Virus record (IMG/VR): IMGVR_UViG_3300042397_000524 | Location: 1-31,394 of that record | Strand: one strand, 5' to 3' | Origin: a virus | DNA: 31,394 nucleotides | Shown: positions 22,435 through 31,394 of the stretch, in pieces | Layout: each line of letters starts with the position of its first letter | Numbering within the stretch: position 1 is the first letter of the stretch | Notes under the pieces: model-generated | What the model was told of the DNA's origin: nothing | Seen by the model: only the letters and a program-made list of their open reading frames with translations | Database searches by the model: none | Program-made: the position numbers and the translations under genes

Positions 22435-22947
22435 TTATTTTTTACAAAAGCAATTTAGTCCATTTTCAATGAAATGTTTGTATGCCATTTGCCTTTGTTC
22501 CTCAGATTCAAACGACACCTCAATCACAAATTTATCCTTTGGCTCATTCTCATTGTCAACCGGTAAATCTTCGCCTAATTCTTTATAAATCGGCAAATCC
22601 AATCCCCAATCTTCTAAATCAGCCATTTCCCAATCATTAGCCAACAAATCCCAATCCCATTCACCAAATCCCACATTGTCGGTAATGATAAAACGTTTCT
22701 GTTGTTCGGCTGTCAATGCTGATGCCTTAATAATTGGCACACGCTTCAATCCGGCTTCAATACAGGCACGCAATCGCATATTCCCACCCAATACCACGCA
22801 ATTATCATCAACAATGATTGGTCGCAATTGCAGCATTTCCGGGAACTCCTTGATGGACTTCACCAATTTTTTGAATTTATCATCCTTAATCAACCGGGGA
22901 TTGTTAGGATGTGGAATTATCAATTTGATGTTTATTTCCTCAATCAT
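22435..22947 (-). CDS. ParB / sulfiredoxin-fold protein
   Basis: A 170-aa protein whose first ~75 residues match the ParB N-terminal/Srx fold: 'IPHPNNPR', 'FKKLVKSIKEFPEMLQLRPIIVDDN', 'VVLGGNMRLRACIEAGL', including the nucleotide-binding 'GGNMRLRA' motif. In many phages and mobile elements this domain is fused to a DNA methyltransferase or binds DNA; here it stands alone with an acidic, Trp-rich C-terminal half (about 85-150). It lies between the early genes and the terminase pair, 3 nt before TerS, so it may be involved in packaging or DNA modification. This is inference. Confidence 0.8.
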   Translation of the reverse strand: MIEEINIKLIIPHPNNPRLIKDDKFKKLVKSIKEFPEMLQLRPIIVDDNCVVLGGNMRLRACIEAGLKRVPIIKASALTAEQQKRFIITDNVGFGEWDWDLLANDWEMADLEDWGLDLPIYKELGEDLPVDNENEPKDKFVIEVSFESEEQRQMAYKHFIENGLNCFCKK

Positions 22948-23910: not shown

Positions 23911-24102
23911 TTATGGTTTACCTATGTCCAACAATTCACGTGGAAATTTGTAAGGATCAATGCACAAATCAAGTTTTATGATTTTGTGGAATATCATAAT
24001 TTCTTGTATTTCCTCAATTATTTCAATTGCCTCATCACGTGTTATGCCATCGGAACATTTGATGTCACCGTGTACAAATATATCTTCATCTTGAAATATC
24101 AT
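23911..24102 (-). CDS. Hypothetical acidic protein, 63 aa
   Basis: A 63-aa acidic protein with a helical centre (DEAIEIIEEIQEIMIFHKIIK) and an 'LCIDPYKFPRELLDIGKP' end. Overlaps the preceding gene by 17 nt. Not recognised; part of the early gene run. Confidence 0.5.
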   Translation of the reverse strand: MIFQDEDIFVHGDIKCSDGITRDEAIEIIEEIQEIMIFHKIIKLDLCIDPYKFPRELLDIGKP

Positions 24103-24313
24103 TGTAATACGTTTTTAGGTTTCTAACACGATTATAAACAACACGTTTTTCCCTTTCTGATCCGTATGTAAGCCGGGCCACACAGGTTTCAAGAAACAAT
24201 TTTGGATTGTGAATCAGTTCCCATGCGTTTACCCGGATTGGCTGTTCACTAAAATTTGGATCTGCAATTCTTTCATTGGCCCAATCAATGGCCTTTTGTC
24301 TGTTAATATTCAT
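24086..24313 (-). CDS. Hypothetical protein, 75 aa
   Basis: A 75-aa protein with an 'AWELIHNPKLFLETCVARL' stretch and a basic 'SEREKRVVYNRVRNLKTY' end. The general type is common in Bacteroidota phage early regions, but I cannot name a family with certainty. It starts in an ATGA overlap with the VRR-NUC gene. Confidence 0.55.
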   Translation of the reverse strand: MNINRQKAIDWANERIADPNFSEQPIRVNAWELIHNPKLFLETCVARLTYGSEREKRVVYNRVRNLKTYYNDISR

Positions 24314-24735
24314 CGTATTGTTGTTTGATTTTCTAATTTCCCATCAATGTATCCTGACCGATATGCGGCCATCATTTTATCCTGTTCCACGAATTTTTGC
24401 GCCTCATAGTATTTCAATTTCTCAATTAACTCATCCAATGATCGCACAATTATGTATTCATATCCGCAATCCCTTGCTTTCTGTTCGAAATCCTTTTGAT
24501 TTGGCTGTTGATAATTGCCTGCAATTTTGACTTCAACAAATAGGCCGTGAAACGTTTGATTTGGCAACAGAATCAGTAAATCAGCCACACCGGCTTTCAC
24601 TCCCTCAGCCTTTAATTTGGCCGCAACTGCTTTGTTTCTCCATCCACCGTTTGGAATGGCAAAAAACGTGTAATTGTTCAAATCAAGATATTTGGCCAAC
24701 ACCGTTTGCAATCTGTGTTCGTGTTCGTTTCTCAT
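24310..24735 (-). CDS. VRR-NUC domain endonuclease
   Basis: A 141-aa single-domain nuclease of the VRR-NUC family (PD-(D/E)XK type). Visible motifs are 'AIPNGGWRNKAVAAKLKAEGVKAGVADLLIL' with Asp52, and 'GLFVEVKIAGNYQQPNQKDFEQ' with Glu68 and Lys70, followed by a helix. Phage members act as Holliday-junction resolvase-like or replication/repair nucleases. It is coupled by ATGA overlaps to the genes on both sides. Confidence 0.9.
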   Translation of the reverse strand: MRNEHEHRLQTVLAKYLDLNNYTFFAIPNGGWRNKAVAAKLKAEGVKAGVADLLILLPNQTFHGLFVEVKIAGNYQQPNQKDFEQKARDCGYEYIIVRSLDELIEKLKYYEAQKFVEQDKMMAAYRSGYIDGKLENQTTIR

Positions 24736-25223: not shown

Positions 25224-26039
25224 TTAATCTGTGCAAAATCCTGCCTGACATCCTGAACCTGTTCCAAAATGAAAATCCATTTGCAGTCCGATGTCTTTAA
25301 ATTGAAAATATGTTCCTTCTTTTTTCCATTTCTTTTTTGGTGATTCTTGTTCCGCAAACCATTGCATTTTGTCGGGTTCTAAATCCCAATTTTTACGCAA
25401 TTGTTGCAATGGTTTATGGAAACATCCAACGCAATTTGAATCAGCCGGGAATATTAGATTGGTAGAATCTGCCCATTTTTTTACATCATAATGTGTGATT
25501 CTGTTTTCAATCAATGGGAAATAACCTTCCCTCCATTCAATTTCCTCCCATTTATTTTGTGTTTTTCTTGTTCCAACGATGCCTTTAAATGTTGTTGAAA
25601 ATCTGTCCGCACGTTCCATTTCATCAAAACGAAATCCAATTCCCATTTTTACTTTTTCATTGATATTTTTAAACCACCAATCAAAAATCGGTCGCATTTT
25701 CATTTCTGTTGTGCAAAACCTCCATTGTTGATTTGGTAATCCTTTGCCTCCTGTGGCTTTTCTATTTACCTGCTCAAATGTTTTGCCTGTTACCCAAATA
25801 ATTTCCTGCCCAATTAATTGTTCTAAATCAATAACTGCTTTTAATGTTAAATCTGATTCGGCTGTGGCGATAAATTCCTGACCGATTTTATCTGAAACAT
25901 ATTGAACTAATTTTTGATCATTAGGTGTGCATCTTTTATCCTCAATGCGAATCAATGAAAACAAATTGTAATCTGCCGGGTAATGCTTTGCCAAATAACT
26001 TGATGTTTTGCCTCCGCTTAGTGAATTTATTATTTTCAT
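25224..26039 (-). CDS. PP-loop enzyme, PAPS-reductase-like
   Basis: A 271-aa protein of the PP-loop ATP pyrophosphatase superfamily. 'SLSGGKTSSYLA' (7-18) is the PP-loop, then 'RFCTTEMKMRPI' and a second 'RFDE' block. Cysteines cluster in 'NCVGCFHKP' and in the last residues 'GSGCQAGFCTD', suggesting a metal or Fe-S site. The family includes PAPS reductases and DNA/RNA thiolation enzymes; this protein lacks the ECG(I/L)H C-terminal motif of true PAPS reductases. Start at 26039 is chosen (ATGA overlap); the longer frame to 26093 lies in the preceding gene. A DNA- or nucleotide-modification role is inferred. Confidence 0.85.
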   Translation of the reverse strand: MKIINSLSGGKTSSYLAKHYPADYNLFSLIRIEDKRCTPNDQKLVQYVSDKIGQEFIATAESDLTLKAVIDLEQLIGQEIIWVTGKTFEQVNRKATGGKGLPNQQWRFCTTEMKMRPIFDWWFKNINEKVKMGIGFRFDEMERADRFSTTFKGIVGTRKTQNKWEEIEWREGYFPLIENRITHYDVKKWADSTNLIFPADSNCVGCFHKPLQQLRKNWDLEPDKMQWFAEQESPKKKWKKEGTYFQFKDIGLQMDFHFGTGSGCQAGFCTD

Positions 26040-26788
26040 ATTATTTCTCCGTTTTCGTTTAATGTCATATCCATATCGGCTAATTGATGGCAAAACAATT
26101 TGTATGCCTCACCTTTGCATCCTGATTTCCACAATTCAAAGTCATTGTATTTGGGCCGTAATCGTTTTGATATTTCAACCCGATCTGATTCAGGGCATTG
26201 CCAAATTTCAAATTTGACTAAAAAATCATACAGGTGTGCCAATCCCCCGGCTGTCCATTCAAATTTTTGTCCTGTTTGATCTGCCAATTTTATTCTTTTA
26301 ACGTATGAATTAACATTTGCGATTGCCAACAACTTCAATTCATCATCCGTTGGAACAGGTTTAACAATTTCGGGTTCCGGCTTTTTTACATTCTTTGTTT
26401 CCTGCCTTGCATATTCAATGTATGCGTTCATTATCCGGCCAAAGTATTCACACGAAAAATTCTCATAACATTTGCAATCAGTATTCAATTTACCTGCAAC
26501 TGCCATTTCAAATGCAATGGCTATTTCCTCAGGTGTTTGGTTTCCATAATTAGATTTTATAAATGCAAGCAATACAAATTTTTCCTCATCTGTTGGCATA
26601 TTTGCACCACGTAGTCCAACCATAAGCATTGCCATTCGCAATACCTGTTTCAAATCATTTTCGGGCCGTGTACGGATGTTTCCTGTGCTTTGTGCCTTAA
26701 TGATTAAATTGGCTGTTCCTTTACCAATTTCGGAGGGCTTCAAGTCTTGCCGCACTTGTTCCAAGTTTTTCACCGGTTGAATTTCCAT
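26036..26788 (-). CDS. Hypothetical replication-region protein
   Basis: A 250-aa protein between the initiator-like gene and the PP-loop gene. Helical first half (about 50-130: 'FVLLAFIKSNYGNQTPEEIAIAFEMAVAGKL'), a Cys pair (CKCYENFSCEYF), then a basic linker and a helical end. The ATG at 26788 is chosen because the longer frame would overlap the preceding gene far more. It could be a primosome/helicase-loader-like partner of the replication protein, by position. No family was recognised. Confidence 0.6.
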   Translation of the reverse strand: MEIQPVKNLEQVRQDLKPSEIGKGTANLIIKAQSTGNIRTRPENDLKQVLRMAMLMVGLRGANMPTDEEKFVLLAFIKSNYGNQTPEEIAIAFEMAVAGKLNTDCKCYENFSCEYFGRIMNAYIEYARQETKNVKKPEPEIVKPVPTDDELKLLAIANVNSYVKRIKLADQTGQKFEWTAGGLAHLYDFLVKFEIWQCPESDRVEISKRLRPKYNDFELWKSGCKGEAYKLFCHQLADMDMTLNENGEII

Positions 26789-27413
26789 TGTTGTTGCTGT
26801 TAAATTTATTCTTGTTTGCCATCCATGTGCTGATTCGCCTGCTAATATCAAAGAATTTTTCGGATTGCCATCTTTCTTTGCCTTTTGCGTTTTTTTCTGT
26901 CCAATAAGATTTGAAATTTTCAAATTCAGTTCCAAGTGTTTGAACGTGTGGTGACAATAGGTCACTAAACACAATTTCATTTACTTTACTTTCATTTTCT
27001 TTTATTTCATTTACTTTACTTTCCTTTCCTTTGTTGAACGGTCGTTGAACGGTCGTTGAAATTCTCTTTTCTGCTGATGCTTTGCCGGCCATTTTGCGTT
27101 GTTCCTTCATTCGGAAATATGGCTCTAAATAAACCAACATTTTTGGTGAAAAGAATTTTTGATCCATGTCAACTTCAAACAATTCATAATTGCAAATCGT
27201 TGTTCTAATCTTTGCCTCAGATACCCCAAATTCATCTGATAACAAATCCAAATCATCCATTGGGTACATTAAATCCTGTTGCTCTCTTAGTGTTTCTAAT
27301 AGCATGAAATAAATGCCATATCCTTCAACTCCTAATTCTCTGCGCAACCTGCGGATTTTACGGTCATGCCTCGCATTACAGAAATGCGGAAAATAAAATG
27401 CCTCTTTGTCCAT
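26721..27413 (-). CDS. Replication initiator-like protein (Lin1244/DUF4373)
   Basis: A 230-aa protein. Residues 1-90 match the Lin1244/Lin1753-like N-terminal domain (DUF4373): 'FPHFCNARHDRKIRRLRREL', 'GYGIYFMLLETLREQQDLMYP', 'LLSDEFGVSEAKIRTTI'. This winged-helix-type domain is common in phage replication proteins. The second half has a low-complexity linker (KESKVNEIKENESKVNEI) and a C-terminal helical region. The ATG at 27413 is chosen, since the alternative at 27455 falls inside the terminator hairpin of the upstream RNA element. It is therefore placed just behind that element, which may control it. Confidence 0.85.
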   Translation of the reverse strand: MDKEAFYFPHFCNARHDRKIRRLRRELGVEGYGIYFMLLETLREQQDLMYPMDDLDLLSDEFGVSEAKIRTTICNYELFEVDMDQKFFSPKMLVYLEPYFRMKEQRKMAGKASAEKRISTTVQRPFNKGKESKVNEIKENESKVNEIVFSDLLSPHVQTLGTEFENFKSYWTEKNAKGKERWQSEKFFDISRRISTWMANKNKFNSNNNGNSTGEKLGTSAARLEALRNW

Positions 27414-27420
27414 TACGGTG

Positions 27421-27464
27421 TTAAAAAAATAAAGCCTGAATGCGTAGGAGTGCAAACAGGCTTT
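27421..27464 (-). terminator. Intrinsic terminator of the kissing-loop RNA
   Basis: On the minus strand AAAGCCTG pairs with CAGGCTTT; inside lie a TT/TT internal loop, TGC/GCA, and an 8-nt loop ACTCCTAC. ATTTTTTTAA follows. It sits only 8 nt before the replication gene ATG, so read-through must be controlled for that gene to be expressed from upstream. Confidence 0.85.
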
Positions 27465-27518
27465 GTGGTTCTTAAACCCAATTAATCACCGGAAAACTCC
27501 TACCCTTTCCGCTGATTA
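27421..27518 (-). ncRNA. Predicted structured phage RNA with kissing hairpins
   Basis: The minus-strand sequence between the -7 box at 27524-27531 and the terminator U-run would give an RNA of about 95-100 nt. Hairpin 1 (27483-27518): TAATCA/TGATTA and CGGAAA/TTTCCG separated by a G-G mismatch, with loop GGGTAGGAGT. A small GGTT/AACC hairpin lies between. Hairpin 2 is the terminator, with loop ACTCCTAC. The loop of hairpin 2 is perfectly complementary (8 of 8) to GTAGGAGT in hairpin 1, giving a kissing loop within or between molecules. No open frame of useful size exists here. It could be a small regulatory RNA, an attenuator of the replication gene, or a replication-linked RNA. Confidence 0.65.
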
Positions 27519-27523
27519 CATCA

Positions 27524-27531
27524 CAAATATA
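27524..27531 (-). promoter_or_regulatory. Bacteroidota-type -7 box before the structured RNA
   Basis: The minus strand reads TATATTTG, a perfect -7 box, 4 bases outside the stop of the 92-aa gene. A start near 27517-27520 would put the 5' end directly at hairpin 1. The -33 region is poor (only TTTA at 15 nt spacing). Confidence 0.55.
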
Positions 27532-27534
27532 ATA

Positions 27535-27813
27535 TTATGACATTAATAAACTACCTTTCAACTGCTTAAATTTAAACAAATGCCCAAATTGGGGATGTTC
27601 CAATACAAATTTGCGTGCATACATCGGTGCAAAATTGTTGTTGATTTTGAACGGATCACCATTGGTTGTGAAGTGAAATTCAAAACGCATTTTTTGGAAT
27701 ATGTATCCTGATCCAATTACCTTGCGATTTTGTTGAATCAACTGCATTGCGATGGCCTTATACAACTCATAAAGATGCGGATTGGCCTGATGATATTGCT
27801 GAAACGTTACCAT
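27535..27813 (-). CDS. Hypothetical protein, 92 aa
   Basis: A 92-aa protein with aromatic and basic segments (FKINNNFAPMYARKFVLEHPQFGHLFKFKQLK). No TM helix or known motif was recognised. It is the last gene before the structured RNA. It overlaps a possible 57-aa frame upstream by 47 nt. Confidence 0.6.
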   Translation of the reverse strand: MVTFQQYHQANPHLYELYKAIAMQLIQQNRKVIGSGYIFQKMRFEFHFTTNGDPFKINNNFAPMYARKFVLEHPQFGHLFKFKQLKGSLLMS

Positions 27814-30730: not shown

Positions 30731-31394
30731 TTACACAATTTTCCCATCTTTTATCATAATGTTTTCAACCTTTGATTTGCCATCTGTGATTGTTACAACC
30801 GCAAAACCGTTATTGTGCTGTGCAAATGGGTAATATTTAGGCGATAATTGTGTCAAACATCCTGTGGAATATGTATGGATATATCGTTTAAAACCATCCT
30901 TTTTGATTGTGTTTGTGGTTCTGTGAACGTGTCCAATTAATGTATTACAGAACGTTTTGTTGAACGTGCTTTGCGATGGGTTCATTCCACCTGCCATCAA
31001 TTCATGGCCGTGACATACCAACAAATCGCCCATTTCCATGCCCTGCCAATCAGGAACAAATTTGATGTCTAATACATCCATTCGAAAAAACTTATCAAAT
31101 TGCATTTCGTGCAATTGGGCAAATTCCTCTGCCTGCTCATTCAAATATCGTTGATACCTGTTTTCGTGGTTACCTGCCTTGAAATAAATCGGAATTGTTG
31201 GGAATATACCACGCAAGGTTTGCAAAAAATTACGGCACATATCTATTTCCTTTGGAAAATCTCTCAAATCCTTTTCCTTTTCGTGCCGGCTGATGCTGTA
31301 AAAATCGAATGTGTCTCCATTTAGATACAGGCAATCAATGTTTCTTTCTTTTAACTCTTTAATGGCACACACCACGGCTTCAACTGAATGGAAC
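30731..31394 (-). CDS. Metallophosphoesterase, partial second copy
   Basis: The C-terminal 221 residues of the same phosphoesterase, cut at its 5' side by the window edge; the reading frame stays open to 31394 (FHSVEAVV...). The GD, GNHE, HGH and GHVH motifs are kept, while D-x-H would lie beyond the edge. Compared with the left copy I find two amino-acid changes (Glu167 to Asp, Ser208 to Ala) against about 42 nucleotide changes. An internal GTG at 31375 could be miscalled as a start. This is most probably the same gene in a variant genome, not a paralogue. Confidence 0.85.
   Translation of the reverse strand, partial: FHSVEAVVCAIKELKERNIDCLYLNGDTFDFYSISRHEKEKDLRDFPKEIDMCRNFLQTLRGIFPTIPIYFKAGNHENRYQRYLNEQAEEFAQLHEMQFDKFFRMDVLDIKFVPDWQGMEMGDLLVCHGHELMAGGMNPSQSTFNKTFCNTLIGHVHRTTNTIKKDGFKRYIHTYSTGCLTQLSPKYYPFAQHNNGFAVVTITDGKSKVENIMIKDGKIV

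Follow-up and report, generated by a model that had tools for sequence, protein, structure and literature searches.

A covarying kissing-loop RNA ahead of replication initiator genes in uncultured phages, probably a replication switch

An RNA element of uncultured phages, in which the loop of one hairpin pairs with the loop of an intrinsic terminator just ahead of a replication initiator gene, is in our view a real, previously undescribed switch that probably controls phage replication. We favour, with reasonable though far from full confidence, the reading that it attenuates transcription of the phage replication initiator by means of its kissing loops. No description of the element was found in the open-access papers searched. 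The host group of these phages is apparently Bacteroidota, as judged from the promoter box.

The window, i.e. the whole stretch of DNA analysed, comprises the 31,394 bases of a virus record, and the element lies on its minus strand between 27531 and 27423. It opens with a -7 promoter box, TATATTTG (27531-27524), of the Bacteroidota type with the consensus TAnnTTTG. This motif occupies positions -12 to -5 relative to the transcript start (PMC9723704), so that the start is predicted at about 27519, adjoining the 5' end near 27518 that a sequence-only reading of the window had anticipated. Hairpin 1, AATCA-G-CGGAAA(GGGTAGGAGT)TTTCCG-G-TGATT (27517-27484), has a stem of 5 + 6 bp with one mismatch, and its loop contains the kissing strand GUAGGAG (27497-27503), including the three-base barcode AGG (27499-27501). 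The linker forms a mini-hairpin, GGUU(UAAG)AACC (27478-27467; GGTT(TAAG)AACC in the DNA), and is followed by the intrinsic terminator AAAGCCTG-TT-TGC(ACTCCTAC)GCA-TT-CAGGCTTT (27464-27431), which consists of an outer stem and an inner UGC/GCA stem. The terminator loop (loop 2) contains the kissing strand CUCCUAC (27444-27450), complementary to loop 1. Nine nucleotides past the U-tract (27423-27433), in which TTTATTTTTTT runs to 27423, is the start codon of a replication initiator gene of 230 aa (26721-27413, minus strand), the proposed target of attenuation, whose product matches PF14297 (E 6e-15) and the replication initiation protein phrog_2562 (E 3e-19). The upstream neighbour, outside the RNA, is a minus-strand gene of phrog_13625, of unknown function (27535-27813). 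Phage genes elsewhere in the window are related to a ParB-like protein/DNA methyltransferase (22435-22947), a Holliday junction resolvase-like endonuclease (24310-24735), PAPS reductase (25224-26093) and a metallophosphoesterase (30731-31375).

The element folds at -34.6 kcal/mol, compared with -21.7 +/- 2.8 for shuffles (z -4.65), and neither loop 8-mer recurs elsewhere in the window. A tRNA/tmRNA search found none. The structured RNA that the sequence-only reading had described, equipped with a promoter and a terminator of its own, is present, box, hairpins and terminator alike, and a stable terminated small RNA is plausible. The gap from box to ATG is 110 nt. Other boxes had been said to lie close to start codons, and the gaps of three on the minus strand were confirmed (19, 27 and 33 nt), but a fifth minus-strand box at 24075-24082 had been left uncounted, and the next start codon found is 209 nt away from it. 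The argument that such loop complementarity is unlikely by chance did not survive for a single genome: under permissive rules, complementary 8-mers in two loops near a T-run are not rare, with 3.8 per dinucleotide-shuffled window. It is therefore the comparison with relatives that decides, and there the conclusion proved right nonetheless, since both loops show compensatory changes, the very test that had been named for the pairing.

A covariance model identified 136 copies of the element, representing 85 distinct RNAs, in IMG/VR viral contigs. A pattern in which both loops were fixed matched 112 viral contigs, most of which clearly carry the same element with near-constant loop spacing. Loop-independent searches used neighbouring proteins, linker patterns and terminator flanks with the barcode left open. 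The proposed Rfam search was run on Rfam 15 at gathering and at permissive thresholds and gave no credible match, with no riboswitch and no P4 CI/c4-type family. INPHARED phages held no DNA relatives of the element and only distant relatives of the initiator protein, in Enterococcus and Lactobacillus phages. An exact pattern scan of 84,980 genomes gave no match, and neither did the covariance model when run, without a positive control, on six genomes that bear the initiator and on 395 of a single class; given its absence from the genomes scanned, the element looks virus-borne. One contig of 59 kb (IMGVR_UViG_3300027969_000114) contains two non-identical copies about 31 kb apart, L074 (7520-7620) and L174 (1226-1324), and may be a chimera, two genomes joined together, or a single phage that has two replication modules.

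Covariation was computed on an alignment (A5) that was fitted to the stems of the model and not to the kiss; compensated cells in it are sequences counted and not independent events. With the kiss included, 98.6% of the cells of the structure are paired, and changes on both sides are seen in 22 of its 29 pairs. The whole structure holds 306 compensated cells, as opposed to 70 +/- 6 in shuffles and at most 27 in slid controls. Compensatory changes were found among relatives in 10 of the 11 pairs of hairpin 1, and the outer and inner stems of the terminator both covary. For the kiss alone, compensated cells number 49 (7.5 +/- 2.3 in shuffles), and the share of paired cells is 97.2%, compared with 29-64% when the kiss is slid; its counts of covarying pairs and of pair types are not above those of shuffles, as expected where loop classes are few.

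In each of the 85 distinct RNAs, which are spread over several loop classes, the two loops can form an unbroken run of seven or more Watson-Crick pairs. The kiss of 8 bp that had been read from the window therefore stands as a conserved kiss of 7 bp, the eighth pair being unpaired in 19 of the 85 relatives. Four of the kiss pairs are invariant (GU..AG / CU..AC) and flank the barcode, whose three pairs covary with zero broken and zero half-changed cells; it occurs in six forms, and the other loop always matches. A scan blind to loop 1 and to the barcode found a matching loop 1 in 78 of 78 intact members, namely GTAGGAG (48), GTCGGAG (19), GTGGTAG (10) and a new class, GTCGTAG/CTACGAC (1), while its other four matches comprised a single truncated copy plus three that arose by chance and lack the element. 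GTGAGAG and GTGGAAG are further loop classes. The fewest-change count for loop class is 19 on an upstream-gene tree of 89 rows, a figure to be read with the shortness of that protein and possible recombination in mind. The loops are far more conserved than the stems, with 18 apical stem haplotypes inside one loop class, and the bases flanking the kiss differ between classes. Linkers measure 14-21 nt, and a stem of at least 4 bp is possible in 83 of 85 of them, compared with about 30% of shuffled linkers. The terminator loop of the window and its flanking G (27443-27451) read ACUCCUACG, which we take to be a universally conserved 16S rRNA stretch; this is probably a coincidence, and 16S rRNA was dropped as a target of loop 1, since no such match exists for the other loop classes.

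The genomic setting is equally regular. A distance of 17-21 nt separates the end of the -7 box from loop 1 in 92 of 98 distinct copies. About 15 of these 98 boxes (e.g. those of L102, L143 and L208) read TATATTGC or TATATTGT and fit TAnnTTGY, motif SM5 of Flavobacterium psychrophilum, which is believed to be that of an alternative sigma factor (PMC9723704). In 124 of 132 copies the next open reading frame (at least 60 codons) begins 0-9 nt past the end of the model, which leaves no space for a second promoter, so same-strand initiator transcripts must cross the terminator unless they begin inside the gene. A replication initiator lies downstream in 123 of 131 informative copies, in 100 of those within 100 nt and in the more distant cases mostly with a small gene, an HNH endonuclease gene or a methylase gene inserted in between; no recognised initiator was found in the other eight. 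The N-terminal parts of these initiators are of four kinds (Lin1244_N, a second Lin1244-like domain, HTH_36 and the phrog_6251 replisome organiser), so the RNA tracks initiator function and not one gene family. Upstream, a relative of the phrog_13625-type gene is present in 96 of 125 copies. Sequence and evolution together establish the structure of the element, the pairing of its loops and its location.

Between the RNA and the initiator position, L199, L205, L210, L234, L240 and L006 carry HNH endonuclease, methylase or small genes, as if this gap were an insertion hot spot; no known initiator was recognised in L199, L205, L234 and L240. The initiators of L042, L050, L072, L076, L154 and L211 have similar C-terminal parts joined to N-terminal domains of four unlike kinds, and several initiators end in LGTSAARMEAL. 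Judging from these sequences, the DNA-binding half of the initiators appears to have been swapped.

In phages whose upstream gene is closely related, the same locus can be occupied by a dissimilar RNA (type II). Its layout includes a promoter box, a hairpin GGCAC-GATCTCACAACATA-GTGCC, a conserved ACTTAAAATGC, and a terminator enclosing ACCG-AAGTGAGATC-CGGT, and in it the purine-rich kissing strand sits in the terminator loop. The hairpin occurs with the stem haplotypes ATCGC/GCGAT, GGTGT/ACACC and GGAAC/GTTCC, and the loops occur as the compensated pairs GATCTCAC/GTGAGATC or CTCCTTAC/GTAAGGAG. Type II was found at loci L016, L032, L034, L038, L039, L045, L046, L053, L186 and L190. When all fetched loci were scanned for kissing terminators in general, types I and II were recovered, and the remaining matches were chance-like. 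That two unlike scaffolds follow the same logic at one locus speaks for the kiss with the terminator as the function.

These results support one of the options raised by the sequence-only reading, an attenuator of the replication gene, and we infer that the kiss opposes the terminator. The promoter puts the predicted start of transcription right at the base of hairpin 1. In the mechanism we propose, this hairpin would capture the terminator loop as it emerges from RNA polymerase. The kissing complex, held on a linker of 14-21 nt that the mini-hairpin shortens, would then strain or delay the outer terminator stem, and some polymerases would read through into the initiator gene; where the kiss is absent, the terminator would be completed and an RNA of about 95 nt released. 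The element sequence shows no linear anti-terminator, which makes the kiss the only obvious partner of the terminator. By a rough geometric estimate, a straight stack of hairpin 1, the kiss and the full terminator is about 30 bp long, so the four helices could hardly coexist on such a linker without bending. A contest between kiss and terminator is plausible from the mean nearest-neighbour energies, -10.9 kcal/mol for the isolated kissing strands and -15.2 for the terminator hairpin. Against an attenuator, the initiator could be read from promoters inside the gene, eight informative copies lack a recognised initiator, and conservation of the loops beyond that of the stems is not explained by pairing in cis alone.

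In the main rival reading, the terminated RNA of about 95 nt would be the chief product, a copy-number or immunity RNA acting in trans, which pairs by its loops with the nascent leaders of the same or related phages and forces termination before the initiator, the barcode being an incompatibility type. We regard this as a serious but secondary possibility. Feedback in trans would explain both the excess conservation of the loops and the small number of discrete, matched loop types among freely varying stems. In addition, contigs from one sample often hold several loop types, the pseudotemperate phage EF62phi has an initiator of the same family, and the P4 CI RNA with the P4 replication genes offers a precedent (PMC4825925). 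However, covariation cannot tell cis from trans pairing, and no sign was seen of plasmid-like or lysogenic persistence in these phages. The two readings could be joined in a more speculative extension of the attenuator: the released RNA might kiss nascent leaders in trans through the same loops, its dosage might report genome copy number and lower initiator synthesis, and the barcode might decide which phages regulate one another. Searching the antisense strand over element copies for TAnnTTTG boxes, the one promoter type considered, gave 17 compared with 20.8 expected. We tentatively suggest, as a somewhat doubtful generalisation, an antisense-free form of phage copy control, in which the loops of the leader RNA are both sensor and signal, the barcodes define RNA incompatibility or superinfection groups, and the dissimilar scaffolds I and II serve one genomic slot by a common kissing-terminator principle.

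A leader controlled by a ligand or protein, in which read-through is set by a metabolite, or by a protein of phage or host, that stabilises or disrupts the kiss, would fit the guanidine-IV-like architecture, the invariant GU..AG pairs and the conserved linker hairpin. We think it unlikely, as there is no invariant unpaired core of the aptamer type, the bases flanking the kiss vary between classes and the kissing bases themselves change; moreover, the regulated gene is a phage initiator and not a metabolic or transport gene, and no Rfam riboswitch scored. The promoter and terminator of the element would also suit an independent small RNA that acts on other phage or host transcripts, its kiss merely closing and protecting the molecule. 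This is rather improbable, because the element nearly always abuts a start codon and an initiator, complementary 7-mers elsewhere in the phages are not in excess (36 found, 40 expected), and the changing loop types argue against a fixed outside target. The sequence-only reading had also floated an RNA that oligomerises, with a loose likeness to the phi29 pRNA, and complementary loops could pair between molecules. Such a packaging-type role is very hard to credit: the element, unlike that pRNA, accompanies replication initiators and not DNA-packaging genes, one loop belongs to an intrinsic terminator, and Rfam gave no match.

The element adds to the RNAs of environmental phages an undescribed, strongly covarying family tied to replication initiators. 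Its natural forms, with matched and apparently orthogonal loops, make gating in cis or trans by a terminator-loop kiss directly testable. If the trans reading is true, these phages would have RNA-only control of replication, and the loops would be natural orthogonal parts useful for RNA circuits.

Among known systems, the guanidine-IV riboswitch is the closest in build. There, the loop of an upstream hairpin kisses that of the terminator hairpin, and this kiss competes with the terminator stem (PMC7736828, PMC11611296); the riboswitch binds guanidine through highly conserved bases and controls transporter genes. The attenuator that we favour shares with it (GGAM-1) the upstream hairpin, the short linker, the loop-loop kiss with a terminator hairpin and a start codon soon after the U-tract, and the direction that we assign to the kiss, as an anti-terminator, is borrowed from it by analogy. 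It differs in that its kissing bases change with compensation, no conserved aptamer core or ligand-binding bases were seen, and the gene downstream is a replication initiator and not a guanidine-related transporter. In phage P4, the CI RNA causes premature termination of the replication operon; it arises by processing of the transcript, and its complementary partners, seqA and seqC, lie up- and downstream on that same strand (PMC4825925). The element likewise precedes phage replication genes and has complementary same-strand sequences, and by analogy its terminated RNA perhaps also feeds back in trans; its partners, however, are two hairpin loops, one of them the terminator itself, and it has no Rfam homology. 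In attenuators of the pT181 type and in R1, pMU720 and ColIb-P9, loop-loop contact sets the specificity of a counter-transcribed antisense RNA (PMC4878617). The element resembles the pT181 type in having an intrinsic terminator in the leader of a replication initiator, a terminator that in our reading would be conditional. It differs in that antisense -7 boxes are not enriched over its copies and that no linear anti-terminator, such as pT181 uses, was seen. Transcription attenuation by loop-loop pairing is thus already known; what is novel here is the RNA family and its setting.
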